In this document: positions 590-43,495 of the stretch, one piece after another
How positions within the stretch are numbered: the first letter of the stretch is position 1
How the letters are laid out: each line of letters begins with the position of its first letter
Source: Halorubrum sp. 2020YC2
GTDB lineage: Archaea; Halobacteriota; Halobacteria; Halobacteriales; Haloferacaceae
Direction: 5' to 3'
Assembly (NCBI RefSeq): GCF_018623055.1
Contig: NZ_CP076019.1
Span: 2,542,001 to 2,606,000 of the forward strand
DNA: 64,000 nt
The notes under the pieces: model-generated
Database searches by the model: none
What the model saw: the letters and a program-made list of their open reading frames with translations, nothing else
Told to the model about the DNA's origin: nothing
Program-made: the position numbers and the translations under genes

Positions 590-590
590 A
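559..590 (+). promoter_or_regulatory. TATA-like box, probably leaderless promoter of the first cluster gene
   Basis: The box tttag at 561-565 lies about 27 nt before the ATG at 590, the spacing expected for a haloarchaeal leaderless transcript. No Shine-Dalgarno sequence precedes the ATG, which fits. Confidence 0.45.
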
Positions 591-15255: not shown

Positions 15256-16281
15256 ATGACAGAAACACGCACAACACGCACACGGACGACTCGGACGGCG
15301 GCCGCCTGCGCGCTCGCCGCCTTACTCGTCCTCGCGACGATCGCGGCGGGGGGCGTCGGGACGGCTGCCGCACAGGAGGACCCCGAGACCGCGAACGAGT
15401 ACTTCGAGACGTTCCGTGCGATGGAGGGGACCGAAGCATATCAGGAGTACGAGGAGTTCGAGACGATGCGCACGTTCGCCGTCTCTCGGGCACAGGAGGT
15501 GGGAACGCTCGACGACGCGGACCGTGCCGAGTTCGCCGCGGTGCTCGACACGATGGTGGCGTTCGAACGCGCGTACGAGCGCGCCGGCGCCGGCGAGTAC
15601 GAGGCGAGTCTCGCCGCGGCTGAGGAGGCCGAGGCCGAGATCGACGAGCTGGAGTCGTACGAGGAGACTCAAGCGACGCTCGCGAATCTCGCGGTGACTC
15701 GCTTCTACGCGAGCCTCGGCGACGGCCTCCGTGATCAGGCGTCGTCCGCCGAGCGGACGCCGGACCGGATCGAGCTGCTCTCTATGACCGCGACCGCTTA
15801 CGAGCGTGCGAACCGGCCGAACGAGGCCGCGGAGTTCAACCTACAGGCCGAACAGCTCTCGGCCGAGTACGATGCCGCGGTGGAGCGGATGGACGAGGCG
15901 GAGGCGACCGCCGGGGCCCTCCTGGATCAGTGCCTCAACTGCGACACCGTCGCCGGCGCGGTCGGCGGCAGCGCCAACCCCGTTCGAACCTTCGAGCGCT
16001 ATCAGGAATCTCAGGAGGCGCTCTCGGATGTACAGGCAGCGCAGGCGGACGCGAGTGAGAACGGCCTCGACGACCGTACGGCCGACCTGAGGGCGCTCGC
16101 AAGCGACGTGGGTGACACACAGTTCTCTCTCGCGGCTGCGTCCGTCTCGATCCTCGTCGGATACGGGCTCGTCGTCGGGCTGATCGGCACGGCAGTACTC
16201 AGCCGGATCTTCCTCTGGCGACGGACCTACGAGATGGCCCAGATCGGGTCGATCGTCTCCGGAGGTGAAAACGATGTCTAA
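15256..16281 (+). CDS. Type-I membrane protein with extracellular TPR-like helical domain
   Basis: The 341-residue protein has a long basic Thr/Arg-rich n-region and a signal peptide ending near residue 38. An extracellular all-helical domain (about 40-275) has TPR-like alternation and a close Cys pair (C-x2-C). One membrane segment (about 285-308) precedes a short cytoplasmic tail with aromatic and basic residues. The layout matches the C-terminal half of the next gene product, and the two may be distant paralogues. The gene starts one base after the preceding stop and overlaps the next by 8 nt. Function unknown. Confidence 0.8.
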   Translation: MTETRTTRTRTTRTAAACALAALLVLATIAAGGVGTAAAQEDPETANEYFETFRAMEGTEAYQEYEEFETMRTFAVSRAQEVGTLDDADRAEFAAVLDTMVAFERAYERAGAGEYEASLAAAEEAEAEIDELESYEETQATLANLAVTRFYASLGDGLRDQASSAERTPDRIELLSMTATAYERANRPNEAAEFNLQAEQLSAEYDAAVERMDEAEATAGALLDQCLNCDTVAGAVGGSANPVRTFERYQESQEALSDVQAAQADASENGLDDRTADLRALASDVGDTQFSLAAASVSILVGYGLVVGLIGTAVLSRIFLWRRTYEMAQIGSIVSGGENDV

Positions 16282-18556
16282 GCGGCTCTCTGCCGCCCTC
16301 GTTGTGGCAGTCGCGCTCGGCCTACTCGCCGCGCCTGCCGTCGGCGCGGCCAACGTCTCGGATGTACAGGCGAGCGACTACACGATGGACGTCCAGACGG
16401 ACGGCCAGACGGACACCCACGACATTCAGGTGACTAACAGCGGCCAGAACGAGACGAGCGCCGACGTGACGATCACGGGCGAGCCGTCCGGTGTGTCGGT
16501 CTCGGGCGCGGACACGGACCTCGAATCGGGGACGACCACCGATGTCCCGCTCGAAATCACCGCCGGCTTCGACGCCGAGAGCGGGACCGTCTCCGGGAAC
16601 GTCAACGGCGAGCCGTTCGAGTTCTACTTGACGGTTAACACCCCGCCGCTCGCCGGCTTCGAGGACGAGCCGCTCGATCTCGGCAACGTGCTCGTCGGCG
16701 AGGGTGGCTCCGGCGAGGTCACCGTCGAGGAGGTTAGCGGCGACGGGTCGCTCGACGGAGTCGAAATAACCGAAGTGCGCGGCGATCAGGACGCGACGCT
16801 CGACTTCTCCGGCGGCTTCTCCGTCAGCGGAAGCAGCGGGACCGTCGACTGGACGGTGACTCCGGACTCGAACGCGCCGCAACACGAGGACCTCGAGTGG
16901 ACCGTCGAGCTGTCGGACTCGCGGTACCCCGACGCGACCCGCGAGGTCGACGTCGAGGCCCGTGTCATCTACCCCGGCTACTTCGGCGAGCCGTCGCTCG
17001 ACGACGACGAGTTCACGTTCGACGAGCCGCGGGACGAGGGCGACACGCTGACCCGAACGATCGATCTAGAGATCCCCAACGACGGGGACACCCCAATCGA
17101 GGTCGGTAGCGTCTCGGCGTCCTCATCCGACCCGGGCGTCTCCGTGACGGCCTCGAGTACGCCGAACGAAATCGACGGGCAGTCGACCGAGGAGGCCGCC
17201 CTCCGAGTCACTGCCGACCGAGACCTTCCGGAGGGGTCGTACGACATCTCCGCGACCGTGGACACGCCGGGATTCGACGGTGACGATGCGAGTCTCGACG
17301 AGAGCTTCGAAATCGTCCACGAGACGCGCCTCATTGCCGACGACACCGACATCGGCGACGTGGCGATCGGCGAGGCCAACAGCCGGACCGTAACGATCAG
17401 CGAGGAACTCGGCTACAACGATGTCAACGACATCGAAACGACGCTCACTAACGGACCGGAGGAGTGGCTCACGCTGGAGAGCGCACCGAGTTCGGTGAGT
17501 GCGGGCGGCAGCGAAGACGCCTCGTTCTCGCTGGAGTTCGACACGAGCGCGGAGCTCGGCGAGAGCTACGAGTGGGAGTACGACGTCGACGGTGACAGCG
17601 GTGACGCGACGATCACGGTCACGGCCTCACCGGTCCCGCTCGATCTCGAACCGATCCAGAACGAGCTTTCCGAGTACGACACGGCCGTCGCCGACAGTAC
17701 CCTCGAGCTCGTCAACACGATGGACGAGCGCCTCCGGAGCGGAGAGAGCGCCAATCAGGAGATATCTACCGTCTTGACTTTCGGCGAGGCGGCAACACTG
17801 TACTCCGAGGCGATCGAGGATGGCGACAGTCACCTAGAGAACGGCGAGCACACCGAGGCCCAGTCCGCGATCATCCGCGCGGCCGCTGCGTACAACACGA
17901 TGGGTCTTCAGGCCGAACGGCTCGAAAACGACGAGCTGCGCGGGCTCGCGAATACTGCCCGGTCCGACGCGGAGGGCGACCTCGACCGACTCATTCAGGA
18001 ACAACGGGCCCACTACGAGGACCGGCTCGAATCGGGCGAGATGTCGCTGATCGAGGAGGCGACCACGCAGCGCCAGCTCGCGCGGATCGCGCTCCTACAG
18101 GGCGACGAGCAGCGCGCAAACCAGCTCGAAAACGACGCGGAAGAGGCGTTCAACAGCTACTCCGACTCCGTCTCGACCGGCGAACAGGCGGTACAGGAGG
18201 CCGAGAGTGCGTGGAGCGAGATGGAAAGCGACCAGTTCGTCGTCGTTCTCGGCCAGCCGCTCCTGTTGAACCCCGCGGATTACGACGCGTTCGTGGCGGG
18301 CACGGCGTCGATCGACGACGCCTACCAAGAGGCGATCAGCGCGTTTGAGAGCGCCGGCGAGACCACTCGCGCCGAGGAGGTCACGGCAGAGTACGAGTCG
18401 CGGACCGCCGCGCTCGGGATCGCACGATACTCGCTCTTCGGCGCGATCGGGGCCTACGCGCTGGTCGCGGTCGGACTGACCGTCCGAACCGCGAGGCGGA
18501 TGTTCTGGTACGTCCGCGACACGCAGGAATCGGTAAGCGGCGACTTCCTCGTGTAG
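16274..18556 (+). CDS. Type-I surface protein with Ig-like repeats, helical stalk and C-terminal TM
   Basis: The start is placed at ATG 16274 because GGAGGTGA (16261-16268) is correctly spaced for it; the in-frame GTG at 16265 lies inside that site. The 760-residue product has a signal peptide (about 1-25), about four Ig-like/CARDB-type beta repeats (about 27-455), a helical domain (about 456-705) and one membrane segment (about 712-735). A short tail rich in Arg, Trp and Tyr ends it. The last part parallels the protein encoded at 15256. It closes the plus-strand arm and is predicted to project from the surface. No enzymatic motif is visible. Confidence 0.82.
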   Translation: MSKRLSAALVVAVALGLLAAPAVGAANVSDVQASDYTMDVQTDGQTDTHDIQVTNSGQNETSADVTITGEPSGVSVSGADTDLESGTTTDVPLEITAGFDAESGTVSGNVNGEPFEFYLTVNTPPLAGFEDEPLDLGNVLVGEGGSGEVTVEEVSGDGSLDGVEITEVRGDQDATLDFSGGFSVSGSSGTVDWTVTPDSNAPQHEDLEWTVELSDSRYPDATREVDVEARVIYPGYFGEPSLDDDEFTFDEPRDEGDTLTRTIDLEIPNDGDTPIEVGSVSASSSDPGVSVTASSTPNEIDGQSTEEAALRVTADRDLPEGSYDISATVDTPGFDGDDASLDESFEIVHETRLIADDTDIGDVAIGEANSRTVTISEELGYNDVNDIETTLTNGPEEWLTLESAPSSVSAGGSEDASFSLEFDTSAELGESYEWEYDVDGDSGDATITVTASPVPLDLEPIQNELSEYDTAVADSTLELVNTMDERLRSGESANQEISTVLTFGEAATLYSEAIEDGDSHLENGEHTEAQSAIIRAAAAYNTMGLQAERLENDELRGLANTARSDAEGDLDRLIQEQRAHYEDRLESGEMSLIEEATTQRQLARIALLQGDEQRANQLENDAEEAFNSYSDSVSTGEQAVQEAESAWSEMESDQFVVVLGQPLLLNPADYDAFVAGTASIDDAYQEAISAFESAGETTRAEEVTAEYESRTAALGIARYSLFGAIGAYALVAVGLTVRTARRMFWYVRDTQESVSGDFLV

Positions 18557-18606: not shown

Positions 18607-21600
18607 TCAGTTCTCGCTCCGCGGCGGCGTCGAGACCCGCGAGGGGAACTCGAGCGACGGCGTTGCGGCGTCGATCCGGTCGATCGACCACGCGGCGAGG
18701 AGGTCGGCGGTCCACGCGGACTCGTCGTCCACGGCGGGCCCGGCGGCGCGGGCGACGTACTCCTGCTCGGTCCCGTCGACCGCGTACGAGACGGTGGCCT
18801 CGAAGCCGGGCTCCGTGTACCCGGACTCGAGGTCGACGTAGTGCTCGATCCGATCGCCCGGCTCGACGCGCTCACGGCGGGCGGGCGAGTAGAACATCGA
18901 GTCGATCGGGTCCCCGTCGGCGACTACCGAGACGTCCGTCAGCGGTTCGTCGCCGTCGTTCTCGAACACGAGCACGACAGAGCTGTACTCGCCCGCGACC
19001 TGGGTGTCCGAGCTGATACCGGGTGTCAGCGCCGGCTCGCCGCCGTCACTAGCACCCGCCGCGTCGCCGTCGGCCGCCGCCAACACGTCGATCCGACGCT
19101 CCTCGCCGTCCGACTCGATCCAGAAGGAAACGGGGACGGCGTCGCCGGGCGCGGGACGTTCGCCGACCGTCGCCGAGACGGTTCCGCTCGCGCCGGCGTC
19201 GACCGCGGTCGAGAGCGACGCTCGACCGCCGTCCGGTCCGGGGTCGACGCCGGTCACGCGACACTGCCGGTCGGTGCCGTTCTCGACCACGGCCGTGAGT
19301 GCCCCGTCGTCCGGATCGACTGTTGCCAGCACCCCGATCGCGTCGTCGCTCACCGAGAGCTGCCGGGCGTCGACCTCGCTGACGACCTTCCCGCTCACCT
19401 CAACCGCAGCCGATGGGAGGGTGAGTTCACCCGCCTCGCCCGCGGCGACGAACCGGTCGACGGACGCGGCCGCACCGCGGTCAAGGCGGCCGAGAGAGAG
19501 GTTATCACCGTCGTCGAAGGCGATCTCGACTGACTCGACCGGCTCGCCATCGTTCTCGACAACGATCCGATCGCGGACCGCGTGGCCGACCCCGGGGGCG
19601 CGCTCCGGAGCGCGTCGCGTCGCCGACAGGGACGGTTCACCCCCGGTCCCGCTCTCCGACCGACCTTCGGTCGGGCCTCCGACCGAGGACTCCGTTCTGT
19701 CCTCGGCGGTTTCCTCCGAATCACGGCTCGACTCCCTCTCGGCCCGATTCGTCGTTGATGACGACTGTCGGTTCCGGTCACTCGTCCGCTCGTTGGATCG
19801 ATTTCGGCTGTCCGCCGCGTCTGCCGAGCGATTCCGACTCTCCGCCACCTCGTCCGACCCGCTCCGCTCCGAGTCACGAGCAGGGGATGAACCGGTCTCC
19901 GACGGATCACCCGTCGAAGCGGTCGACCGGTGGGGGGTCGTCGACTCGCCCGACTCGGACGAGTTCGGCGACCGCCTCGTCCCTCCGGTTTCGCGGGACG
20001 ACCGCGACCGGTCGCGGTCGCGACCGCCGGCCGACGAGGACGTTGTGAACGTCCCGTTCCCGGGGACTCGGACGCGCTTCTCGGCGTCGAGTGCGTCGAG
20101 CGCGATCCGGGCGACCCCCGACTCGTACTGCGGGACGAGGAGCAGCAGTTCGTCGCCGTCGATCGTCACCGGGGACCGCACACGACCGGCGCCCGGCATC
20201 TCTACCACGAGCCGGTCTTCGACCGGAACGCCGTCAGCGACGGCCACGGTCGCCCGCAGTGCGTCGCGCTCGACCGCCGCGTCGATTGTCGGCCGAGACG
20301 GGAGCGTACACGTGGGGGCGTACTCCCGGCGGCGGTCGCCGCGTGTCACCTCAAGCCCGACAGAGACCCGGGTTTCAGGCTCGTACGGCCGGGTGACCGT
20401 ACCCTCCCACGCGTCGCCCGGCGCGATGTCGGTCGCCTCGGTGCCGGCCTCCAGCAGCCGGACCGCGTCGAGTGGGACGCCCCCGACGTTCTCGACCGTC
20501 ACACCGATCTCGGCGACGCCATCGTCGATCCGCGCCGCGTGTAGGACCGTCTCGACTGCCAGCCCGCCGCTCGCCGCGTCTTCGACCTCGACGGTCCCGC
20601 GCCCGACCTCGTCGCCATCGGCCGCAACGATCGCGTCTGCCCGCCCCTCCCGTCGCACCGACGCGACGGGGAAGTCGGCAACCGTAGAGTCCTCGCCGTC
20701 GATCGTCACAGTTCGCTCGGCGGGCGAGAGCGAGCAGCCGTCCACATCGAGCGAGAGATCGACCGTCTGCTCCTGCTCGGTCGGATTCGACACCTCCACG
20801 TCGACCGTGCCGCCGACCCCGACGGAGTCGGTGAGGACCGCCACGTCGATCCGATCGCGGTCGAGGACGTACGTCGCGATCGTTCCGTCGCGTACCGAGC
20901 AGACGACCGCCCCGTCGCCCGAAGCGTACACGTCGCCGGTCGAGAGGTCGGGGACCGTCTTGGTCACCCCGTCGGCCGTCACGTCGAGTACGCCGTCGGC
21001 CGCGCTGACCAGCACCGAGCCCTTCCCGACCGGTGCGACCTGTCGGGCGTCCAGCTCCGTGCGCCAGCGGTCCTCACCGCTTCCGCGGTCGAGACCGACG
21101 AGGCGGTCGCTCTGGAGCGCCGCGACCACGGTCCCGTCGCAGACGCCGACGCTCCGAACGACCGCCGAGAGATCCCGGTCGAAAGCGACCTCGCCATCGC
21201 CGTCCACCGCGGTGAGGAAAGACCACGTCGCGATCACGAAGCCGGTCGGCGTCGCGAGGAAGGCGTCGTCAGGCGTCCCCGGCCGGGTCCGGTCGACCGC
21301 GAACCGCTCGCGGCCGCCCGCGACCTCGACGACCCGGAGGGTATCGGCGTCGAGGATCCCGCAACACTCCCGGGACTCGGCACCGGCCACAGCGTACGCG
21401 TCTCCCGCGTCGTGGCTCCACACTTGGTCTCCGTCGAGCGAGTACGCCGTGAGCGTCTCCGGCGAGAGGACGAGCAGGCGGTCCGCCACCGCCAGATCGA
21501 GGATCGGATCGTCGTGGTCGATCGCGGTCCGCTCCCGACCGGAGACCAGCGTGACCCGGTCGTCAAGTCCGAACGCGATCACGTCGCGTCCGACCCCGAC

Positions 21601-21654
21601 CGCGGACGGGGGATCGCTTTCGAAGGAGCCGACCTGTCGGTAGCCGTCACTCAC
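18607..21654 (-). CDS. Cytoplasmic beta-propeller and Ig-like scaffold protein
   Basis: The start is GTG 21654, which overlaps the stop of the AAA+ gene and follows a GGAGGTGA site with 5 nt spacing. The 1015-residue protein has no signal peptide or membrane segment. Residues about 1-290 form PQQ-like propeller blades. One or more CARDB/Ig-like domains follow (about 290-530), then a disordered Ser/Arg/Glu/Thr-rich linker (about 531-680), then further Ig-like domains to the end. Such propeller plus Ig-like combinations are usually extracellular, so a cytoplasmic copy is odd and points to a protein-interaction scaffold. It is the last gene of the minus-strand arm and is translationally coupled to the AAA+ ATPase, a likely partner. 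Confidence 0.82.
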   Translation of the reverse strand: MSDGYRQVGSFESDPPSAVGVGRDVIAFGLDDRVTLVSGRERTAIDHDDPILDLAVADRLLVLSPETLTAYSLDGDQVWSHDAGDAYAVAGAESRECCGILDADTLRVVEVAGGRERFAVDRTRPGTPDDAFLATPTGFVIATWSFLTAVDGDGEVAFDRDLSAVVRSVGVCDGTVVAALQSDRLVGLDRGSGEDRWRTELDARQVAPVGKGSVLVSAADGVLDVTADGVTKTVPDLSTGDVYASGDGAVVCSVRDGTIATYVLDRDRIDVAVLTDSVGVGGTVDVEVSNPTEQEQTVDLSLDVDGCSLSPAERTVTIDGEDSTVADFPVASVRREGRADAIVAADGDEVGRGTVEVEDAASGGLAVETVLHAARIDDGVAEIGVTVENVGGVPLDAVRLLEAGTEATDIAPGDAWEGTVTRPYEPETRVSVGLEVTRGDRRREYAPTCTLPSRPTIDAAVERDALRATVAVADGVPVEDRLVVEMPGAGRVRSPVTIDGDELLLLVPQYESGVARIALDALDAEKRVRVPGNGTFTTSSSAGGRDRDRSRSSRETGGTRRSPNSSESGESTTPHRSTASTGDPSETGSSPARDSERSGSDEVAESRNRSADAADSRNRSNERTSDRNRQSSSTTNRAERESSRDSEETAEDRTESSVGGPTEGRSESGTGGEPSLSATRRAPERAPGVGHAVRDRIVVENDGEPVESVEIAFDDGDNLSLGRLDRGAAASVDRFVAAGEAGELTLPSAAVEVSGKVVSEVDARQLSVSDDAIGVLATVDPDDGALTAVVENGTDRQCRVTGVDPGPDGGRASLSTAVDAGASGTVSATVGERPAPGDAVPVSFWIESDGEERRIDVLAAADGDAAGASDGGEPALTPGISSDTQVAGEYSSVVLVFENDGDEPLTDVSVVADGDPIDSMFYSPARRERVEPGDRIEHYVDLESGYTEPGFEATVSYAVDGTEQEYVARAAGPAVDDESAWTADLLAAWSIDRIDAATPSLEFPSRVSTPPRSEN

Positions 21655-23398
21655 GGCCGTCACCTCCGATCTCCGCCTCGGCGGGGCCTTCGGGCGTGGG
21701 TTCATCCCCGGCGCGCTCACCTCCGGGCGTCGGTCCGCCGTCGCCGCTTCCCGTGCCGCCATCGCCACTACTGCCGTCCCCGCTCCCGCCGCTTCCGTCG
21801 TCTCCCTCTTCGGCGCTTCCGTCTCCGTCCCCGCCGAAGAGCTGTTCGAGCGACGAGGGTTCGTTGCCCAGCCGCATCTCCAGCCGCTCGGCCTGCTCTT
21901 CGACGTACCGCCGCAGCTCCGGGTACCCTTCGAGGTCGTCGATCTGGGTCCGGACGCTGGCGACGTACTGCCGGACCGTCTTGGGTTCGGTCTCTCCAAG
22001 CCGGTCTGCGAAGTAGTCGGTCGTCGGCTCGATCGGCTCCCGATCTGGGAGGTGGACGCTCTCGACGAACTCGCGCTGGAGCTCGCTTCCCAGCACGCGG
22101 TCGGCGATCTCCGCCGGGGTGTACCCGGTCGATAGCTCGCCGAGCCGGTCGTAGTCGATCCCGTCGGTCCCGTGCATCGACGCGAGGTGTTTCCGCCACA
22201 CCTGTGCCATCACCTCCGTCTCCGGCTGCGGGATGAACTGCTGGATAGGGAACCGGCGGGTGGCGGCCGGGTCGATGGTGAACGGCATGTTCGTCGCGCC
22301 GATCACCAGCAGGTTGTCCTCGATCTCGTTCATCTCTTGGAGGAACGCGTTGGTCAGCGAGCGCTCGTGGCGCTGGAGCGAGTCGTCGCCGCGGTCGGGG
22401 ATCAGCGTGTCGACCTCGTCGAAGAAGAGGACGGCGAACCCGTCCTGCGCGATCCCGTGTGCCTTCTCGAAGATCGCCTCCACGCGCTTCTCCGACTCCC
22501 CGGAGTACTTCGAGAGCACGTCGCTGCCCTTGATCTCGAGGAACTTCACCTCGCCGTAGCTCTCCTCGATGTTCGAGTTGTACTTCGCCTCGTAGGCGAT
22601 AGCCTCCGAGACGAGCGTCTTCCCGCAGCCGGGGGGCCCGTACAGCAGCATGCTGTTGCCGCGCGAGGCGAACTCGTCGCCGTAGCGGTCGACCACCTCG
22701 TCGCGCACGTCGGGGTCGAACAGCGCGAGCAGGTTCTCCGCCGTGCGCTTCACCTCTGGCAGCCCGGCCACGTCCTCCTCGAAGCTGACCGTCGGCTTCT
22801 TCGGTTCGAGCGACACCTGAACCGCCTCGTCGTCCCCCTTCTGCCCGCCGCGACCCTGTCCCCCCGTTCCCGGTCCCCTCGGTCGGGAGTCGGACATCGC
22901 CTTCTGCTCTCGGTACTCGCCGGTGTCGACGAACTCGATCTCGGTCTCGTCTGTCACGCGAACGGTGTTGTAGCCGGAGGGTTCGATCTCAACCGGCTCA
23001 AACCGACTCGGTCCCTCGTCGCGAGAGACGACCTCCTCGATGGGGTGGAGTAGGTAGTTGCTCTCACGGAGGAACGCCGCGATCTGTGACTCGTCCATCG
23101 CGGTGTGAATCGACACCGACTTACAGTCGGGAATCTCGGCCGGGTTGACATCCGTGTCAACGAGACAGTCCCGACCGCGGTGGAACCCACCGAACAGCTT
23201 CTCAACGTTTTCGTGGATCCGGAGATCGGTACCGATGTCGTCGACCAGCCGGTCGTCGACGGGTTTTACGTAGAAGTGGGCGCTTCGGTTTGCGTGTTTT
23301 ACCCGCACGAGCTCGGTCGACTCTCCGACTTTCGAGGCCCCGATCTTGACGTGTGAGGTAGGCTGGCCCGAGAGGACAACCGGCTTGAGATTAAGCAC
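21647..23398 (-). CDS. AAA+ ATPase with CDC48/VCP-like N domain
   Basis: GTG 23398 is chosen as start because it overlaps the upstream stop; GTGs at 23404 and 23407 are alternatives. The 583-residue protein has an N-terminal region (about 1-160) whose pattern, a double-psi-barrel-like half then a strand-rich half ending in an acidic D-E-T-E-I motif, resembles the CDC48/VCP substrate-binding N domain. After a Gly-rich linker a single AAA+ module carries Walker A GPPGCGKT (254-261), Walker B FFDEVD (325-330), sensor ATN (368-370) and arginine fingers Arg381/Arg382. The tail from about 495 is acidic and Gly-rich. CDC48-type enzymes have two AAA rings; this has one, as in ESCRT-associated Vps4 or proteasomal ATPases. 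It is probably the remodelling engine of the cluster, for example disassembling filaments. This last step is inference. Confidence 0.9.
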   Translation of the reverse strand: MLNLKPVVLSGQPTSHVKIGASKVGESTELVRVKHANRSAHFYVKPVDDRLVDDIGTDLRIHENVEKLFGGFHRGRDCLVDTDVNPAEIPDCKSVSIHTAMDESQIAAFLRESNYLLHPIEEVVSRDEGPSRFEPVEIEPSGYNTVRVTDETEIEFVDTGEYREQKAMSDSRPRGPGTGGQGRGGQKGDDEAVQVSLEPKKPTVSFEEDVAGLPEVKRTAENLLALFDPDVRDEVVDRYGDEFASRGNSMLLYGPPGCGKTLVSEAIAYEAKYNSNIEESYGEVKFLEIKGSDVLSKYSGESEKRVEAIFEKAHGIAQDGFAVLFFDEVDTLIPDRGDDSLQRHERSLTNAFLQEMNEIEDNLLVIGATNMPFTIDPAATRRFPIQQFIPQPETEVMAQVWRKHLASMHGTDGIDYDRLGELSTGYTPAEIADRVLGSELQREFVESVHLPDREPIEPTTDYFADRLGETEPKTVRQYVASVRTQIDDLEGYPELRRYVEEQAERLEMRLGNEPSSLEQLFGGDGDGSAEEGDDGSGGSGDGSSGDGGTGSGDGGPTPGGERAGDEPTPEGPAEAEIGGDGRE

Positions 23399-24026
23399 TG
23401 TCACCACCCGCGACCGCGGTCGCGAGCGTCTCGACGCCGCCGAGCAGTGTCGCGGCCCCCTGGTTAGACATCCGTCGGGTATACCGCCCGACGACGAGCG
23501 CCGACGAGAGGGCGTCTTCGAGGGCGGCCAGCCGTTCTGCCACCGTCCAGAACATCGTCTCAACCAAGTCGGGCCCGTCGACACGGGCTCGGCGGTGAAC
23601 GCGTCGGAACCCGTCTCGAACGCGTTCCAGTCGTGAACACAACAGGTCTGCGAGCAGCCACCAGTTTCGGAGCGCTGGCATCTCCACGCCGACCGGGACT
23701 ATCACTCGGCCGTCGACCTCCGTGATTCGGTCCGCCTCACGCGCGTGCTCCAGCACGTCATCGTCGATCTCCGAGCCGAGTCCCGACTCCAGCCGATCGG
23801 CCAGTATCGTCCGCACGGCTTCGTCGCCCGCGGTCCGCTCCATGCTCTCGGCGCTGACGCGCGGCAACGCCACGGATGAGAGTTCACCGATGTCCTCAAC
23901 GGCGTCGACCGCATTGCCGGCGATTCGGAGTGCGGGTCCCGGGTTCCGAAACGTCTCGATCGCCAGCGCCCTGTCGAGGACCTCCTCAACCCGGTCGAGC
24001 GTCAGTACGAACGAGGTGGCGTACAT
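23391..24026 (-). CDS. Helical protein of unknown function next to the AAA+ gene
   Basis: ATG 24026 starts one base after the upstream stop. The 211-residue product is predicted all-helical, with no membrane segment, signal or recognised motif. Ala/Leu/Arg/Asp-rich amphipathic helices run throughout, and a Trp-Trp pair sits in the middle. Its stop overlaps the AAA+ start, so the two are probably made together. It may be an adaptor or substrate of the ATPase. Confidence 0.75.
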   Translation of the reverse strand: MYATSFVLTLDRVEEVLDRALAIETFRNPGPALRIAGNAVDAVEDIGELSSVALPRVSAESMERTAGDEAVRTILADRLESGLGSEIDDDVLEHAREADRITEVDGRVIVPVGVEMPALRNWWLLADLLCSRLERVRDGFRRVHRRARVDGPDLVETMFWTVAERLAALEDALSSALVVGRYTRRMSNQGAATLLGGVETLATAVAGGDSA

Positions 24027-24027
24027 G

Positions 24028-25059
24028 TTAAATCTGGATGTTCTCTTCCCCAGCCGCCCGCTCGGCGGTTTCGGCGACCTCGGAGAGTGCGCTCGCTTGG
24101 TCTTGGACCGTCTCGCCAAGATCTTCTTCGATCATCGCCTCGAGGTCGTCGCTGTCGACATCCTCTTCGTTTTCGGCCTCGACGCCGGCGAGGTCGTTGA
24201 TGAGGCTCCCCGCGTTGTCGACGAAGTTGAGCGCCTCCTCTGGGAACACGTTGTTCTGTACCGCCGCCTTGCGGGTATTGCGGTGGAACATGTCGTACGC
24301 CTCACGAGCGGCCTCCAGCCGGTCGATCGCCATTCCCATCTGGTCGAGACCGACGTTGACGTTCTCGAAGAGGTTCTCTTCCTTCGCCTTCTCGATGTTG
24401 CGCAGGTAGAGGTAGTGGCTCTTGAGTTGGTTAAACTGCTGGCGCTCCTCGTTACTGAGGGTTTCCGGGTCGGGAATCCCCTGCCCGGGGCCGAGATTCT
24501 GGAGGCGCTGTGCCGTTTTCGAGAGCCGCTCGTTGGAATCGGTCCGCTCGGTCTCCAGCTCGTCGATCGTCTCCTTGAACCGTTTTTTGGCGTCTTCAAC
24601 CCGTTCGAGGTGCTCGTCGATGCTCTCTATCACCGCCCCCATTAGTGCGGCCCAGTTCATCAGCGCCGCCCCGCCGAGATCCTCCTCATCGGGGTCGCGG
24701 AACAACACCAACTGGTCCCCCTCGATCCCAAGCACGTCCTCTTTCGCGAGATACTCGACCAACACGTCCGCCTGCTGTTCGCTAGACACGACCGTTTCGC
24801 CGTCGACGGTCGCACCGGCAAGCGCCTCGACCGCCTTTCGCCGACTGATCCCACCGTTGCCGTTGGCGATATCGATCTGGTTTATCGTCTCTGGCTGGAC
24901 GATCTGTTTGATCAGGTCCTCCCACTTCCCCTCCATGTCGTCGCTCTCGATCCAGTCGGCTCGGACGCGGATCGGTTCGGAGGACTGGCCGCGCCCCTCC
25001 GCGATAACGAACTGCTGGCCGTTGATCGTTTTCGTTTCGAAGGAATATTTGCGAGTCAT
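24028..25059 (-). CDS. Coiled-coil protein with small N-terminal domain
   Basis: The 343-residue acidic protein lacks membrane segments. The first about 120 residues form a mixed strand/helix domain, perhaps winged-helix-like. A long helical hairpin or coiled coil follows (about 130-275), then an acidic C-terminal tail with short amphipathic helices (about 285-343). This layout superficially recalls ESCRT-III/PspA-like proteins, but charge and motifs give no proof. It lies one base upstream of the helical protein gene in the minus-strand arm. A polymerising or AAA+-substrate role is possible; function unknown. Confidence 0.78.
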   Translation of the reverse strand: MTRKYSFETKTINGQQFVIAEGRGQSSEPIRVRADWIESDDMEGKWEDLIKQIVQPETINQIDIANGNGGISRRKAVEALAGATVDGETVVSSEQQADVLVEYLAKEDVLGIEGDQLVLFRDPDEEDLGGAALMNWAALMGAVIESIDEHLERVEDAKKRFKETIDELETERTDSNERLSKTAQRLQNLGPGQGIPDPETLSNEERQQFNQLKSHYLYLRNIEKAKEENLFENVNVGLDQMGMAIDRLEAAREAYDMFHRNTRKAAVQNNVFPEEALNFVDNAGSLINDLAGVEAENEEDVDSDDLEAMIEEDLGETVQDQASALSEVAETAERAAGEENIQI

Positions 25060-25113: not shown

Positions 25114-26214
25114 TCAGAACTCCTCGTCGGCGACGATGGTTTCGTACCGGTCGATCACGGCCTCGCGGACGTGCTCGTTGACGCGGTTGTCGTGAGCGAC
25201 TTGGAGCTCCTCGAACTGTTCCTCGGCACGCTCGGTGAACTCCGACGGAGAGGCGAACACGTCGTACTCCCCTTTCACCTCGCCGAGGATCCGGCGCGCC
25301 CGCTCATCGACGAGCCGGTCGAAGGGCTCTTCGACCGTGACGATCTCCGGTCCCTCGGCGAGCCCCAAGCGGTCGACGAGCGTCGACCGCGTCTCCCTGA
25401 GGATATCCGTCCGGACGCTCCGCGCCGCCGACAGCACGTCGAACCGGGAGTCGATCGCGTTCTCCACGACCTGTTCAAACTCCCCGACGCGCAGCGCGTG
25501 GTTCGACTCCTCGAACTCCGTTTCAACGGTCTCCTCGATCTCGTCCGCGAGGAACTCCGCGTACTCGTCTATCGCCTCCTCAACGAGGTACTCGCCGTTG
25601 AGATCGACGATGTAACCCTCCCGGTCGAGGTACCGGATCACGTCAGAGGTGGCGTTCACGTCGATGACGCTCTCGAGGTCGCTGTGGGCGATCTTCCCGT
25701 TCGACGCCTCGCGTTCGAGCCGCGCGTCGAGCCCCACGTCGTCGGCGTGCTCCTTGAGCTTCGGGCCGATCGTGTAGTAGTCTCGCTTGCCCGCTGTGAT
25801 GCGGCGGAGGTAGTCGCGCTCGGTAAGCTCGTCGACAAAGAATTCAAGATCGTCGATCGCCAGCGAGAACCGCGAGCGGAGTGTCTCCCCAGTGACCACC
25901 AGTCGCTGGCCGAACAGGTTCGTCAACTCTCGCGTAATGTTCATATTCCCCTTCACGCCGAAGGGATCGACATAGTACACTCCGTCTCGAAGCTGGTCGA
26001 GGTCGACGAACTCGTCGGCTGACATCTCTGAGAGCGCCTTTCGCATATCGCTTGCGGCGAGCGATCCCGCGTTAAGCGTTCCAACGTCCGCGTTCTCGTA
26101 GCCGGACTTAATATCCGACTTCTGGTCCGCGACGTACACGAACCCGTAGTTGTCTTGGGCAATATCTCGACAGACGTCCTCGAGGACGTCCATATCCACC
26201 GGCAAAATCGTCAT
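25114..26214 (-). CDS. Tandem winged-helix-like protein, first gene of the minus-strand arm
   Basis: ATG 26214 is preceded by tttag about 27-31 nt upstream on the same strand, fitting leaderless initiation; longer starts lack this. The 366-residue acidic protein appears to contain several successive winged-helix units (about 40-230), judged from repeated helix-helix-helix-strand patterns such as D-L-x-F-F-V-D-E-L-x-x-R-x-Y-L followed by Y-Y-T. A helical C-terminal part (about 230-366) follows. No membrane segment. Tandem winged helices can bind DNA but are also common in protein-assembly scaffolds. No regulator family is recognised. Confidence 0.78.
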   Translation of the reverse strand: MTILPVDMDVLEDVCRDIAQDNYGFVYVADQKSDIKSGYENADVGTLNAGSLAASDMRKALSEMSADEFVDLDQLRDGVYYVDPFGVKGNMNITRELTNLFGQRLVVTGETLRSRFSLAIDDLEFFVDELTERDYLRRITAGKRDYYTIGPKLKEHADDVGLDARLEREASNGKIAHSDLESVIDVNATSDVIRYLDREGYIVDLNGEYLVEEAIDEYAEFLADEIEETVETEFEESNHALRVGEFEQVVENAIDSRFDVLSAARSVRTDILRETRSTLVDRLGLAEGPEIVTVEEPFDRLVDERARRILGEVKGEYDVFASPSEFTERAEEQFEELQVAHDNRVNEHVREAVIDRYETIVADEEF

Positions 26215-27336: not shown

Positions 27337-27377
27337 GTCGCGCCCGTGACTGAGCGAAGCGAAGGAACGGGCGCGAC
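27337..27377. repeat. Perfect 11-bp inverted repeat at the tRNA 3' end
   Basis: The 11 bases at 27337-27347 are the exact reverse complement of 27367-27377, with 19 bases between. The right arm is the end of the tRNA acceptor and T stem. Downstream of the tRNA the transcript could form a hairpin competing with the acceptor stem, or the repeat could be a recombination or termination site. Confidence 0.6.
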
Positions 27378-27440
27378 GGGATTTGAACCCGCGGCATCTT
27401 GGTCCGGAACCAAGTGCTCTGTCCGCTGAGCTACGCGCCC
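27368..27440 (-). tRNA. tRNA-Arg (anticodon CCG)
   Basis: On the minus strand the 73 bases fold as a complete cloverleaf. The acceptor is GGGCGCG pairing with CGCGCCC, the D stem is GCTC/GAGC, and the anticodon stem CTTGG/CCAAG encloses the loop TTCCGGA, giving anticodon CCG for codon CGG. The T stem/loop is GCGGG-TTCAAAT-CCCGT. CCA is not encoded and no intron is present. It reads codirectionally with the exporter operon upstream, with 27 bases between. Confidence 0.95.
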
Positions 27441-27467: not shown

Positions 27468-30077
27468 TTAACGCTTCTGACTCGGGTCGTTTGCGGGCGG
27501 CTGCGGGTCGGTCTGCCACTCGAAGGCGTCGGCGTCCTCGTCGGGGTCGACCGGCTCGTTTGTCCCCCCGTCGGTCCGCGGCCCCTCGGGCGCACCGCTC
27601 CCGCCGTCGACGTCGATCGCACCGGCGGCGTCGAGCAGGCGGCCGACGAACAGCAGTCCGGGGCGGCGCTCGACGACGGCGACCCAGACGACGAGCGCCG
27701 GGGGTAAGACGATCAGCGACGCGAGGTAGGCGAGCGTGATGCTGGCGGCGGTGAGCAGCCCGAACTGGCCGAGGATCGGCGTGATGGCTAAGACGAGCAC
27801 GCCCGTGCCGAGCGCGGTCGTCGCCCACGTGCCGGTGAGCGCGCCGCCGGTCCCGCGGAGCGTGGTGACCACCGCGGCGTCGACGTCGCCGCCGCGGGCG
27901 TACTCGTCGTGGAAGCGGTGCGCGACGTGGACGGTGTAGTCGACGCCGAGTCCGATGGATATCGAGAGGATCGTCGCGGTGATCGCGTTGAACGGGATCC
28001 CCCCGAGCCGCATCGTGGCGGTGAGCGTCGCGACGGAGACCGTCACCGGGACGAGCGTGACGAGCCCGAGCGTCGGACTGCCGAGGAGGAGCCAGAACAG
28101 GACGACGAGGAACACCGCCGAGAGGCCGAGCGCGGCCGCCAGCGAGACGAGCGCCGACTCGAAGATCGTGTCCGCGACCGCCTGAAACACGACAATCTGG
28201 CCGGTCGCGGTCGCGTCGCCGCGGTAGCGGTCGGCCACGCGCCGGGCGTCCGCGGTGATCTCGGCGTCGCTGGCGTCGGACTCGACGGCGTATACGATTC
28301 GCGTCGAGCGGTCGTCGTCAGCGAGGTACTCGCCCGTGAAGTCGTCGTACGGCGAGTCGCGCAGTTCGGCGTAGATCCGGTCGAGGTTCCGGTTCGGGCG
28401 CCCGTCGTCGAGCGCGGACGCCTCGACCAGCCGCTCGAACTCGGGGTCCTCCGCCGCGTAGGCGTCGATCGCGCCCTGAACGCTGTCGACGCTGGCCCGG
28501 CCGTCGACGGTGACGAACGTGTCGGGCGGGTCGCGCTCGGCGCGCGCGAGGCTGCGCAGGGCCGCGTCGCTGGTCATGCGCCGCTCCACGTAGATCGTGA
28601 CGGTGTCGTCCTCGCTCGTGGCGAAGTTGTCGGAGAGGAAGTTGATCGTCTCCGTCGCGGTGTACTCGCCGGGCTGGAGCGGACCGGGGAGGTAGTCGAC
28701 GTACGCCGGCTGCTCGCTCGGCGGGAGGAAGTCGTCGTCCTCGAAGGTGGTGTCGACGCCCGCGCCGTAGCCCGCGGCGCCGGCCGTGAGCAGGAGGACG
28801 ACGACGAGGAAGACGGCGGGCGCGGGCCGCGAGATGGCGGACAGCTTGGGGAGGAGCCGCCCGAGGGCGGAGTCCTCGGAGCCGAGCGGGCGCGAGCCGA
28901 ACTCGGGCAGCGAGCGCTCGGCGCGCCAGCGGTCGACGACCAGCTTCGCGGCCGGGAGGAAGCCGACGAAGATGACGAGGGTGAAACAGATCCCGAGCCC
29001 GGCGACCAGCCCGAACTCCCGGAGCGGGGCTAGCGAGCTGGTGAGGTTCGCGAGGAAGCCGATGATCGTCGTCCCGGCGATGATCGAGTACGCCACCACG
29101 AGCTGGCCGAGCGCGCCGCGCATCGCGGTCTCCGGCGGCGCGCCCGCGGCGCGGTCCTCGCGGTAGCGGTTCACCGTGTGGATCCCGAAGTCGATCCCGA
29201 TGGCTAAGAGGAGGACGGGCACCGCGATCAGCACCTCCGAGAAGGCGATCCCGGCGTAGCCGGTGAAGCCGAACGTCCACACCACCGTCATCAGGAGCGC
29301 GACGCCCCCGAGCACGAAGTCGAACGGGTCGCGGTAGGCGTACGCCAGCAGCCCGAGGATGACCGCGAGCGCCGCGGGCACGACGATCGACAGCGAGTCG
29401 AAGATGACGCGCTCGAACTCGTCGTCGACGATGCCGCCGCCGAACGCGGTGACGTCGCCGGGGGCCTCCTCGGCTATCGTCTGCGCCTCGCTCTGGATCG
29501 CCTGCGTGTCCGCCGACGCCGGGAACGAGTGGGAGACGACGCCGAGCGCCGCGGAGGCCGTCCCCGACTCGCGGTTGAAGTCGTCGGAGAGCAGCGTCGC
29601 GAACCCGGGGTCCTCGGCCGCGGCCGCGACCGCGTCGTCGATTTCGCCGTCGCTCGCGCGCTCGATCGCGTCGCGGGCCGCCTCGGGGGTGTCGGCGTCC
29701 GCGTCGAGTTCGGCCGCGACGTCCATCGCGGGCGCGGAGACGTCCGTCACCCGCAGCCCGTCGCGGTCGGAGAGCCGCTCGGCGGTCGCCAGCATGTCGA
29801 GGAGGCCGCGTCGGTCGAGCACGTTGACGTCGCGCTGGATCAGCTGCGTGGTCGGGTCGTCACCCCCGAACGCCGGCTCGAACTTCTCGTTCACGCGGTC
29901 GAGCGCGTCCGACTCCTCGATCCCGTCGGTGAACTGGTCGCTGCCGGCGCTGGCCTCTAACAGCGCCATGCCGGGCGCGAACAGGGCGGTGACGACCAGA
30001 CAGGCGATCACGACCCGGCGCGGCTGCTCGATGACCCGGTCGGTGATCGCGCCGAACAGCCGGGTGACGGGGTCCAT
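27468..30077 (-). CDS. RND/MMPL superfamily exporter (COG1033 type)
   Basis: The 869-residue protein has the RND arrangement. One membrane segment near the N-terminus is followed by a large extracellular domain (about 45-225), a block of five or more membrane segments, a second TM-domain-TM repeat, and a soluble acidic C-terminal tail. Both halves carry the family motif: A-I-G-I-D-F-G-I-H (about 292-300) and, in the second half, G-L-G-V-D-Y-T-V-H. Archaeal members use the ion gradient to move lipids or hydrophobic molecules. Its ATG directly follows the stop of the COG1361-type partner gene, so the two form an operon. Confidence 0.9.
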   Translation of the reverse strand: MDPVTRLFGAITDRVIEQPRRVVIACLVVTALFAPGMALLEASAGSDQFTDGIEESDALDRVNEKFEPAFGGDDPTTQLIQRDVNVLDRRGLLDMLATAERLSDRDGLRVTDVSAPAMDVAAELDADADTPEAARDAIERASDGEIDDAVAAAAEDPGFATLLSDDFNRESGTASAALGVVSHSFPASADTQAIQSEAQTIAEEAPGDVTAFGGGIVDDEFERVIFDSLSIVVPAALAVILGLLAYAYRDPFDFVLGGVALLMTVVWTFGFTGYAGIAFSEVLIAVPVLLLAIGIDFGIHTVNRYREDRAAGAPPETAMRGALGQLVVAYSIIAGTTIIGFLANLTSSLAPLREFGLVAGLGICFTLVIFVGFLPAAKLVVDRWRAERSLPEFGSRPLGSEDSALGRLLPKLSAISRPAPAVFLVVVLLLTAGAAGYGAGVDTTFEDDDFLPPSEQPAYVDYLPGPLQPGEYTATETINFLSDNFATSEDDTVTIYVERRMTSDAALRSLARAERDPPDTFVTVDGRASVDSVQGAIDAYAAEDPEFERLVEASALDDGRPNRNLDRIYAELRDSPYDDFTGEYLADDDRSTRIVYAVESDASDAEITADARRVADRYRGDATATGQIVVFQAVADTIFESALVSLAAALGLSAVFLVVLFWLLLGSPTLGLVTLVPVTVSVATLTATMRLGGIPFNAITATILSISIGLGVDYTVHVAHRFHDEYARGGDVDAAVVTTLRGTGGALTGTWATTALGTGVLVLAITPILGQFGLLTAASITLAYLASLIVLPPALVVWVAVVERRPGLLFVGRLLDAAGAIDVDGGSGAPEGPRTDGGTNEPVDPDEDADAFEWQTDPQPPANDPSQKR

Positions 30078-31880
30078 CTATCGGGAGCGGAGTCGACGGC
30101 GGAACTCGGACATCGCCCGACTCACCCGACCGCGCTGCCAGACCAAGGCGCCGCCGACCGCGACGACGCCGAGCAGGGCGACGATCCCGAGCGGCGAGGA
30201 GAGCGCTCCGCTGTCGTCTTCGGTGACCACCTCGACCGGGAGCCGGTAGGTGTCGGAGAGCTGTTCGTCGCCGTCGGCGTCGTCGTAGCGGAAGTCGACC
30301 GCGGCCGCGTACGTCTTCGGCGTCGCGCCGCCGTCGACCGCGACCTCGAAGGTGACGGTCCTCGCCTCGCCCGGGTCGAGCGAGGTGACGAACGCCTCGT
30401 CGTCGGACGAGGAGAGCGGCGAGTCGACGAACAGCTTCGCTTGGACGTCCGTGATCGGCTCGGGGCCGGTGTTGCGGACGACCGCGTCGTACCGGACCGT
30501 CGACCCCGGCGTGACCGTCGACGGCTCGGTCGCGTTCGGCTCCGCCGGCGACACCGAGAACACGTCGGCCTCGGGCGCGACGTCGACGACGACATCGAGC
30601 GTGTCGGAGACGATGACGTCGCCGGCCGACCCCGTCGACACCAGCGAGACGGTGCCGTCGTCCTCCGGGTTCGCGCTCACGCCCTCGTCGGTGCCGAGCC
30701 CGCGGTAGCGGACCGCCACGTTGACCGTCCGCTCGCCGGGGTTCGCGTCGGTTCGGAGGCCGGCGTCGAACGTGGCGGTGGCCGTCTCGCCGACCGCGAG
30801 GTCGCCCACCGTGTCCCGCGTCGAGCGGGGGACGATGTTCGGGTCCGACTGGACCGTCTCCTGCCCGACCCCGTCCGGGGCGGGCGCCTCGTTGCTGAAC
30901 ACGACGACCGCGTTCTCGACCTCGCGGGGGCCGCGGTTGCGGACCTCGACGGTGAAGGAGCCGTCCTCACCGACGCGCAGCGTGCTGTTCAACCCCTCGG
31001 CGGTGAACGCCTGCCGCGAGAGCGGCGTCACGCCCGTCCGGACAGTTCTCGCGGCCGCGTTCGCGCGCTCGGCGTCGCGGTAGTCGACGTCGAACTCCAG
31101 CGTCGACGCCCGCGCGGTCGCCTCGCCTGCGGCGGCGAGCCGGTAGGTGAACGTGCGGTCCTCGCCCGGTTCCCACGACCCGACGTACGTCTCGGTCGTG
31201 CCCGCGTCGGTGGCGAACGAGAGGTCGGGGTCGATCGGGTTCGCGGCGACGGAGGCCTCGCGGGCGGTCTCGTTTCGCACGTTCCGCAGCGTCACGTCGA
31301 CGAGCCCGTTGTCGCCCGCCTGGACGGCGCCGTCGACGTCGACGACCGCGAACTGCGCGCGGTCGGTGATCTCCACGGAGACGTACACGGTCTCCGTCAC
31401 GACCTCATCGTCGCGGACGGTGGAACCGTCGTCGACCTCGGCGCGCTCGACGTTCCGGTACTCCAGTCGGATCGGGACGCGGTAGACGCCCGGCTCCGCG
31501 TCCTCGTCGGGGACGACGGTGAACTCGATCGGTCCGGTGACGCCGCGCGTGACGTCCCCGACCGTCTGCTCGCCGGTCCGCACGTCGAAGGGGACCTCGC
31601 GGTTCGCCGCGTCGCCGGTGAGGATCCGCGCCGTCGTCTCGTGGGCGGTCACCACCTCGCTCTCGAGGTTGTCGGCGCCCTGCGCGTCGATGTCGCCGCG
31701 GTTGTTCAGGCTCACCTGGAGCGTCGACTCCTCGCCGGGGACGAACGCCGTCTCCGGCGCGAACGCCTCGATGTCGGGGTCGCCGCGCACGGTGTCGTTG
31801 GCCTGCTGCGCGACCACCGTTCCGGTCGCGAGGAGCGACGCGACGAGGAGAAGGACGGCGGCCGTCCGGATTCGACTCAT
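30078..31880 (-). CDS. COG1361/CARDB-type secreted membrane protein, exporter partner
   Basis: ATG 31880 is preferred because a signal peptide (about 1-23) begins there; upstream in-frame codons would add a non-hydrophobic leader. The 600-residue product has four or five extracellular Ig-like/CARDB repeats (about 30-545), a C-terminal membrane segment (about 560-580) and a basic tail. Genes of this kind commonly sit before RND/MMPL exporters in archaea and are thought to be periplasm-facing adaptors. It abuts the exporter and diverges from the TrmB-like regulator. Confidence 0.87.
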   Translation of the reverse strand: MSRIRTAAVLLLVASLLATGTVVAQQANDTVRGDPDIEAFAPETAFVPGEESTLQVSLNNRGDIDAQGADNLESEVVTAHETTARILTGDAANREVPFDVRTGEQTVGDVTRGVTGPIEFTVVPDEDAEPGVYRVPIRLEYRNVERAEVDDGSTVRDDEVVTETVYVSVEITDRAQFAVVDVDGAVQAGDNGLVDVTLRNVRNETAREASVAANPIDPDLSFATDAGTTETYVGSWEPGEDRTFTYRLAAAGEATARASTLEFDVDYRDAERANAAARTVRTGVTPLSRQAFTAEGLNSTLRVGEDGSFTVEVRNRGPREVENAVVVFSNEAPAPDGVGQETVQSDPNIVPRSTRDTVGDLAVGETATATFDAGLRTDANPGERTVNVAVRYRGLGTDEGVSANPEDDGTVSLVSTGSAGDVIVSDTLDVVVDVAPEADVFSVSPAEPNATEPSTVTPGSTVRYDAVVRNTGPEPITDVQAKLFVDSPLSSSDDEAFVTSLDPGEARTVTFEVAVDGGATPKTYAAAVDFRYDDADGDEQLSDTYRLPVEVVTEDDSGALSSPLGIVALLGVVAVGGALVWQRGRVSRAMSEFRRRLRSR

Positions 31881-32163
31881 GTTGACTGCGTCCGAGTACG
31901 GGGCTGCGACGTAATACCCTTCGGGAACCCGCGACAACAACGTATATGTTTTCGTATGAGACCGGGCGGAGCGATCGGCGGGGGCAATCGGACGGAGCTC
32001 CGATTTTATGGGATACTGACGGCGTAGGACGGCCTAAGTTCGGATCGGAGGAGCGCGAGCGACGAACGAGTCGCGAAACCGACGGCGGTTGTTCACGAAC
32101 CTTTTATATATCTCGGCGGCGCCGAACGCCGAGGCTTTGTGGGGGACGCGCGTAGGGCGCGGC
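31881..32163. promoter_or_regulatory. Divergent promoter region between exporter operon and TrmB-like gene
   Basis: The 283-bp gap holds a plus-strand TATA box (tttatata, about 32102-32109) serving the regulator at 32164. On the minus strand an AT-rich box around 31938-31950 serves the exporter operon. No gene is seen. The divergent layout suggests that the regulator controls the exporter. Confidence 0.5.
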
Positions 32164-37339: not shown

Positions 37340-37777
37340 CTACACGCCTTGATCCCGGAACCGACGAACGTCGACTGCGACGGGTAGTTCGTCGAAGTCG
37401 TCGTCCGCGCCGGCGACAAGCGTCGCGTCCCGCTCGCTCGCGAGCGCGACGGCGTGGGCGTCGGCAAGCGAGATGTCCCCGTGAGCCTTCACCTCGGCCG
37501 CCAGCCGCCAGTCGGCCGATTCGATCGCCAGCCCTCGCCGTTCGAGCGCGCGGAGGTCCCGGTCCGCCTCCCGAAGCGAGGCGTCGGTCGGGGCGTCGTC
37601 GACACCCACGAACCGGGCGACGAGATAGAAGACCTCGCCGGCGTTCGTCTCGGCGAGCGCCCCCGCCGACTCGCCGGCGAACACCTCGTCGAGGAGCCCG
37701 GCGACCGCCTCGTGGCCGGGTTCCCCGTAGAGGTACGCGACGATCGCCTCGGTGTCGAAGACGTACCTCCCGCTCAT
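37340..37777 (-). CDS. VapC-like PIN-domain ribonuclease toxin
   Basis: The 145-residue PIN domain has the usual acidic residues: Asp8 in V-F-D-T-E, Glu48 in N-A-G-E-V-F-Y, Asp106 in S-L-A-D-A-H, and an Asp cluster near 125-127. VapC toxins cleave RNA, often tRNA. Its ATG overlaps the stop of the AbrB-type antitoxin gene (ATGA), the classical antitoxin-toxin order. Confidence 0.9.
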   Translation of the reverse strand: MSGRYVFDTEAIVAYLYGEPGHEAVAGLLDEVFAGESAGALAETNAGEVFYLVARFVGVDDAPTDASLREADRDLRALERRGLAIESADWRLAAEVKAHGDISLADAHAVALASERDATLVAGADDDFDELPVAVDVRRFRDQGV

Positions 37778-38070
37778 TCGTCCTCGGACGGGCGGAGCCG
37801 GTCCGCCCGCTCCGTTTCCCGACGCTTCTCGTCGTCTCTCAGTTCCCGTACGCGCTCCAGCGCCTCGCCGCGCTCGTGCTCGTCGGCGTGGATCCCGTGG
37901 AGTTCGTCCGGCGAGGGGACCGGTTCGACGACGATCCGCCCCTCGTCCTCGTAAATGAACACCTCGCCGGGCGCCTCGATCCCGAACTTCTCGCGGAGCC
38001 CCTTCGGGATCGTGGCCTGTCCCTTCTGCGAGACGCGTACTACGGTCGGTTCGTTTGTACTACTCACCAT
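37774..38070 (-). CDS. AbrB/SpoVT-type antitoxin
   Basis: Start at ATG 38070, with an AT-rich promoter (tttagtaata on the minus strand, about 38098-38106). The 98-residue protein has an N-terminal swapped-hairpin AbrB domain (about 10-50: V-S-Q-K-G-Q-A-T-I-P-K) and a charged helical tail (about 60-98) that would occlude the toxin. It is coupled to the PIN toxin gene by a 4-nt overlap. As in other such pairs it probably represses its own promoter. Confidence 0.9.
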   Translation of the reverse strand: MVSSTNEPTVVRVSQKGQATIPKGLREKFGIEAPGEVFIYEDEGRIVVEPVPSPDELHGIHADEHERGEALERVRELRDDEKRRETERADRLRPSEDE

Positions 38071-38136
38071 TATTAGTTGTACTTGAAATTCTCGTATTAC
38101 TAAATCCACCGCCGATCGAGTAGCGTGCGCTCCCGC

Positions 38137-43494: not shown

Positions 43495-43495
43495 A

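Follow-up and report, generated by a model that had tools for sequence, protein, structure and literature searches.

What does a single-ring AAA+ ATPase with a Cdc48-like N domain do in a gene cluster that also encodes three tubulin-superfamily proteins? The question is raised by gene L of the 64,000-nucleotide stretch of DNA analysed here (the window), which belongs to a 3.06-Mb archaeal chromosome assigned to the class Halobacteria from its relatives. Gene L is read on the minus strand from a GTG start at 23398 to a TGA stop at 21647, and the plus-strand frame over 21647-23398 is interrupted by stops. A sequence-only reading of this DNA had claimed that gene L overlaps both of its neighbours, and the overlaps are real, with 8 nt shared with gene K (K start 21654) and 8 nt with gene M (M end 23391). 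The gene and the segments of its predicted product are as follows.

21647-23398, minus strand: gene L, predicted Vps4-like AAA+ ATPase with a Cdc48-type N domain, 583 aa
22913-23398, minus strand: N domain, residues 1-162; the match to the CDC48_2 portion of Cdc48 N domains spans about 83-160
21959-22801, minus strand: single AAA+ module, residues 200-480, with Walker A GPPGCGKT, pore-loop Tyr298 and Walker B D327/E328
22169-22321, minus strand: second region of homology (SRH) segment, residues 360-410, carrying the adjacent pair Arg381-Arg382; closest among solved structures are Vps4B/SKD1
21650-21880, minus strand: low-confidence Gly/Asp/Glu-rich tail, residues 507-583

An hhalign comparison of residues 1-162, using a profile of 20 orthologues, with 22 haloarchaeal Cdc48 N domains gave a match at Prob 89.7 and E 1.8e-6, in which columns 86-164 fell in register on columns 78-161, within the CDC48_2 half. 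Against these 22 domains, the profiles built from genes N and O, used as unrelated controls, reached E 0.41 and 0.53. As single sequences, 9/20 orthologues contained Pfam CDC48_2 (best E 2.7e-5). The CDC48/VCP-like N domain proposed in the earlier reading, a proposal that depended on a match of the N-terminal region to CDC48_N/CDC48_2, is thus borne out by a profile-profile match at E 1.8e-6 against 0.4-0.5 for the controls, with CDC48_2 as the family matched. Judged by sequence, the match to Cdc48-type N domains covers the second (CDC48_2) half only. The first half has the predicted strand-helix order E-E-H-E-E-E-H-E-E, which is the order expected for a double-psi barrel, and it is from this predicted order that a double-psi half may be proposed. 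The N-domain profile had no relative among PDB sequences (best E 0.69), and a Pfam scan of the full-length product at E 0.5 detected no MIT family. Outside Halobacteria, the N-domain profile was found in 6/392 genomes of the phylum, and these six belong to a single order.

Pfam detected one AAA module in the gene L product (E 6.6e-32, residues 250-390) and no second AAA ring in its 583 aa, in agreement with the single AAA+ module first read from the letters; the same genome encodes three ordinary two-ring Cdc48 proteins besides gene L. The pore-loop tyrosine, Y298, was invariant across the 20 orthologues of the whole-length alignment. The nearest solved structure to the whole module was the D2 ring of p97/Cdc48 (183 bits), with VAT D2 also among the best, and Vps4 fell short of E 1e-30 in this comparison. 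NCBIfam models produced a near tie between CDC48 (124 bits) and CdvC (114 bits). When residues 360-410 alone were compared with solved structures, Vps4B/SKD1 matched without gaps at E 8.4e-8 and Cdc48 at 2.6e-6, and the next matches after Vps4B included fidgetin-like proteins. The SRH begins ATNMPF and carries an adjacent, ungapped RRF in 22/22 orthologues, a tally that includes L044 and the G017 copy, both of which were left out of the ATPase alignment A1. RRF was present in 0/8 captured SRH segments from other AAA modules of the same genome, which have a longer R-x-G-R form instead. An extra arginine immediately preceding the arginine finger has been described as the hallmark of the meiotic clade, which comprises Vps4, katanin, fidgetin and spastin and whose members disassemble protein polymers (PMC5039278). 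The AAA module therefore reads as a hybrid in sequence, p97/Cdc48 D2-like overall with a Vps4-type SRH, and the analogy to Vps4 drawn earlier stands through that region (RRF 22/22, ungapped on Vps4B).

Gene L shares its single ring and a double arginine lacking the two-residue insertion with Vps4/CdvC (ESCRT-IV) and the meiotic clade, but has a predicted Cdc48-type N domain where Vps4 has MIT, and its module lies nearer to p97 D2. Its N domain and overall AAA sequence resemble those of Cdc48/p97/VAT, although it has one ring rather than two and a different SRH. AlphaFold2 modelled the N domain well (block means 67-93 pLDDT across residues 1-160) and the AAA part poorly, with a mean pLDDT of 64.7 and a pTM of 0.39 for the whole model. 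All 50 Foldseek matches listed for this model were Cdc48/p97, over 503-561 alignment columns with TM (query) of 0.21-0.25; these values are low because the domains are placed unreliably in the model, and the matches are taken only as consistent with the assignment. The VIA-align rows span just residues 190-378 and are therefore silent on the N domain. In the tail, residues 507-583 include 20 D/E, 3 K/R and 25 G and were modelled with low confidence, where a disordered acidic tail had been read earlier; its length varies from 10 to 106 residues among the 20 orthologues.

The cluster comprises 15 genes in two operons, with O-N-M-L-K on the minus strand convergent to the ten genes A-J on the plus strand.

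590-2278, plus strand: gene A, 562 aa, one TM-like segment
2391-4019, plus strand: gene B, tubulin/FtsZ-superfamily protein, 542 aa
4320-6284, plus strand: gene C, bacterial-PH-domain (bPH_2) protein with a zinc-ribbon-like stretch, 654 aa
6411-7691, plus strand: gene D, tubulin/FtsZ-superfamily protein, 426 aa
7960-8994, plus strand: gene E, predicted membrane protein, 344 aa
8991-11087, plus strand: gene F, predicted membrane protein, 698 aa
11091-12320, plus strand: gene G, tubulin/FtsZ-superfamily protein, 409 aa
12330-15254, plus strand: gene H, predicted membrane protein with a weak carboxypeptidase-regulatory-like stretch, 974 aa
15256-16281, plus strand: gene I, predicted membrane protein, 341 aa
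16265-18556, plus strand: gene J, predicted surface/membrane protein, 763 aa (760 aa from the ATG at 16274)
18607-21654, minus strand: gene K, propeller-type protein with a long C-terminal half, overlapping L
23391-24026, minus strand: gene M, 211-aa protein, helical by first reading, overlapping L
24028-25059, minus strand: gene N, 343 aa, with a winged-helix-like N part, long helices at 130-188 and 203-271 and an acidic end; ESCRT-III/PspA-like candidate
25114-26214, minus strand: gene O, 366 aa, likely winged-helix (arCOG11740/11741-type) component

Pfam tubulin/FtsZ families matched B at E 5.7e-12, D at 1.4e-14 and G at 7.1e-9. In a tree of 26 rows, B, D and G each formed an orthologous family of their own (100/100 in every case), and four other tubulin-family proteins of the genome fell outside all three; the fifth such protein, own_L170, was read in the wrong frame. 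TM-like segments were present in A, C, E, F, H, I and J. K was the one propeller protein recognised at the locus, with a weak BamB-type match (E 2.9e-4), and the counterpart position in H. salinarum is annotated as a PQQ-binding-like beta-propeller. No family match was found for the gene M product, Pfam matches to gene O were weak, and named-record relatives of gene N come from Halorubrum salsamenti and H. persicum (77-78% identical), which makes Halorubrum the likely genus of the window.

In a first draw of 194 Halobacteria genomes, the ATPase was found in 20, gene N in the same 20 and tubulin G in 22. A larger draw of 391 contained the ATPase in 38 genomes and tubulin G in 40; all 38 were within the 40, and two of the 391 had tubulin G without the ATPase. 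Search thresholds were 1e-60 for the ATPase and 1e-20 for tubulin G, with the best few candidates per genome scored. The tie to a tubulin-family cluster proposed earlier is therefore upheld by tubulin G in 38/38 ATPase-bearing genomes, and all 19 first-draw relatives with the ATPase also carry B, D and G. Genome co-occurrence gave a Fisher value of 8e-51, which ignores kinship. Distance correlations with the ATPase, uncorrected for shared ancestry and computed without L043 and L044, were 0.84 for G, 0.86 for D, 0.87 for F, 0.76 for N and 0.54 for O, the O set holding mis-started rows. Gene order was mapped in the 19 first-draw relatives, leaving out 18 genomes found only in the 391-genome draw. 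Both operons occurred together and in the same order in 16/19 (in G161 across a contig break), and were apart but both present in the other three (G017, G060, G097). The map was made by tblastn at E 1e-3, which left M undetected in 7/19, E in six, K in two, and H and N in one each; N was unseen by tblastn in G017, yet found there in the genome search.

Within the genus the system is patchy, with three genomes in the 391-genome draw including the window's own, and five records are plasmid copies, including pHS2 of Halobacterium salinarum R1. GC3 is 0.85 in the cluster and 0.95 in ten flanking genes that we selected. Since the cluster is patchy in the genus, found on plasmids and lower in GC3 than its flanks, it looks horizontally transferred. 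In one relative, G014, the ATPase is 54% identical and the locus stretch has 47% GC. No relative of tubulin G was found among 50,697 phage records. A tRNA-Arg(CCG) gene (27368-27440, minus strand) borders the lower-GC3 cluster some 1.1 kb past gene O; with regard to its use as an integration site, no repeat of it of at least 14 nt was found in the window plus 40 kb upstream. Immediately left of the window, at 16200-17132 and 18539-19972 of L174, are genes for a D12-class adenine methyltransferase and an AIPR protein with GC3 of 0.44-0.45, likely an island adjoining the cluster. Further right, outside the conserved cluster, the minus strand encodes an MMPL/Patched-type membrane protein and then a CARDB/Ig-repeat surface protein (27468-31940), and a PIN-domain gene with a MazE/AbrB-type partner, a probable toxin-antitoxin pair (37340-38109). 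Adjacent genes for the small and large chains of ribonucleotide reductase (42472-45184, plus strand) have GC3 below their neighbours, and the large chain, at 562 aa, is short and matched in several pieces. An SPFH/Band 7 protein is encoded 19 kb away from the cluster (45360-46586, minus strand); SPFH proteins are described as parts of Meth_adaptin ESCRT loci (PMC10936438).

In the two genomes with tubulin G and no ATPase, G041 and G047, the cluster genes present are D, F to J and K. Neither whole genome had a match to the ATPase, its N domain, gene O or gene N; tubulin B was likewise not found, the lone weak match in G041 falling in gene D, and the 40 kb mapped yielded no A, C or M. Beside the core (L140-L143), each of the two encodes a protein, 1139-1157 aa in length, that matches Tubulin_2 (E 4.5e-9 and 7.6e-9); membrane proteins bearing Walker A motifs (GPARGGKT, GPKRSGKS) are encoded there as well. 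We take the Tubulin_2 Pfam family to be FtsZl1 of Makarova and Koonin 2010. Tubulin_2 proteins are treated as FtsZ-like in the text of PMC9871819, and P-loop GTPases are described as belonging to FtsZl1 operons (PMC2875224); the Walker-A membrane proteins of G041 and G047 are candidates for these GTPases. The two loci resemble the FtsZl1 (Tubulin_2) membrane-remodelling systems described in PMC2875224 in that an FtsZl1-type gene adjoins the D-K core; unlike the gene L cluster, they lack the ATPase, N, O and tubulin B. This arrangement suggests two interchangeable modules around one D-K core. Because G041 and G047 keep D and G without the ATPase, we argue that D and G are independent of it, which points to N and/or tubulin B as its partners.

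A system of this kind has already appeared in print. Makarova et al. 2024 (mBio, PMC10936438) predicted a Halo_adaptin type of ESCRT locus in Halobacteria, for which a role in vesicle formation was proposed. According to that paper, the ATPase of such a locus is Vps4-like, lacks MIT and has a VAT-type N domain. A PspA-like protein is encoded upstream of it, and the locus also includes winged-helix and propeller-Ig proteins (two of each), additional Ig proteins, one CetZ-related protein and a membrane protein (PMC10936438). The present locus matches this type, sharing an ATPase with a VAT/Cdc48-like N domain (here at hhalign E 1.8e-6) and no MIT, and tubulin/FtsZ-family membership at the locus, here threefold (B, D, G). 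The likeness to the Halo_adaptin ATPase, WP_014555335.1, was drawn by description rather than sequence to sequence. Whereas the published text has one CetZ-related protein and two propeller-Ig proteins, we recognised three tubulins and one propeller protein, and in addition several other membrane proteins and one with a bPH domain; the supplement of that paper may list more components. The term Halo_adaptin was found only in PMC10936438, and the literature consulted, supplementary gene lists aside, contained no experiment on it, no three tubulins and no FtsZl1 exchange. The cluster tubulins may be identical with the Halo.Tub proteins of PMC9871819, which are described there as occurring in quasi-tandem copies beside coiled-coil proteins.

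Protein N, encoded two genes upstream of the ATPase, is the candidate for the polymer-forming partner. Its match to PspA was slight (E 8.6e-4), Snf7 and PspA were absent from the best 25 of the 75 Pfam families matched, and no PDB sequence matched below E 0.04. The model places residues 46-120 in a winged-helix-like order, followed by two long helices in a hairpin-like arrangement. Structural matches were to generic coiled coils and BAR-like proteins with Z of at most 11.4, the noise range for helical models; a BAR-domain identity was considered and rejected, the SNX1, FAM92A, Bin1 and Arfaptin rows (Z 8.5-9.2) lying within that range. The PspA match and the modelled winged-helix-like and long-helix parts weakly suggest that protein N is an ESCRT-III relative, the weakest link in our best explanation.

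According to that explanation, gene L probably encodes the Vps4-like ATPase of an archaeal ESCRT system of the Halo_adaptin type, which would disassemble a membrane-bound polymer. Its sequence shows all catalytic motifs in a single AAA+ ring module, the invariant pore-loop tyrosine and the double arginine of Vps4 type; the N domain is of Cdc48 type, and the gene is always inherited along with the cluster. Its product would form a hexamer whose N domain may dock on a cluster partner, either a winged-helix protein or the propeller protein K, while the pore would thread one end of a polymer built most likely from the ESCRT-III/PspA-like protein N and possibly from tubulin B. Threading would pull subunits out and take the membrane-bound polymer apart, allowing membrane remodelling or vesicle budding to proceed, organised with the tubulins and with the cluster's membrane proteins A, C, E, F and H to J.

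The same features bear on other roles. A specialised Cdc48/VAT-like unfoldase, which would extract or unfold cluster tubulins or membrane proteins for turnover, would account for the Cdc48-type N domain and for a whole AAA module that best matches p97/VAT D2. We regard it as unlikely given the missing second ring, the double arginine of Vps4 type and the C terminus: the HbYX proteasome-docking motif of proteasome-activating ATPases was present in 0/20 orthologues, whereas own1874, a 314-aa AAA protein of the same genome, ends in NYQY. It is more doubtful still that gene L encodes a katanin-like factor severing or recycling the cluster tubulin filaments directly. Three tubulin-superfamily proteins do occur with the ATPase in 19/19 mapped relatives, tubulin G accompanies the ATPase in 38/38 genomes, and fidgetin-like proteins are among the next SRH matches, but the tubulin genes sit in the other operon, Pfam found no MIT domain in the gene L product, and G041 and G047 keep tubulins D and G without the ATPase. 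The dedicated filament or assembly remodeller proposed earlier is retained in its analogy to Vps4, through the SRH, with filaments as a possible target only.

A patchy distribution, plasmid copies, GC3 below that of the flanks and the DNA methylase and AIPR genes immediately upstream of the window might instead indicate part of an anti-phage or conflict system on a genomic island. We give this very little credence, as gene order is kept over deep divergence and Pfam found no nuclease, deaminase or other effector domain in the cluster. The PADLOC matches (IetA, TRIP13) cover the generic AAA fold only, and a defence-system identity based on them was rejected.

Beyond the preferred reading of gene L as an ESCRT-type disassembly ATPase, we consider it possible, with the balance tilting somewhat against, that the locus is a composite tubulin-ESCRT machine of exchangeable parts. 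Its D-K core, a membrane core containing two tubulins, would be driven either by L/M/N/O and A/B/C or by Walker-A membrane proteins together with a tubulin of FtsZl1 type. If this is true, one kind of membrane event could draw its energy from either the Vps4-like ATPase or the P-loop proteins, and the separately described archaeal ESCRT and FtsZl1 systems would be variants of one machinery.

The three tubulins, strict nested co-inheritance, separable operons and two module-replaced genomes go beyond the published text on Halo_adaptin. Vps4 has been argued to descend from Cdc48 by loss of one ring (PMC10936438), and a single-ring ATPase with a predicted Cdc48 N domain and a Vps4-type arginine pair would offer a living intermediate for biochemical tests of that descent. 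The copy on pHS2 of H. salinarum R1, a laboratory strain, makes the system accessible, and the obligate tie to three tubulins, with the two module-swapped relatives, would provide a handle on the joint work of tubulin and ESCRT polymers in archaea.
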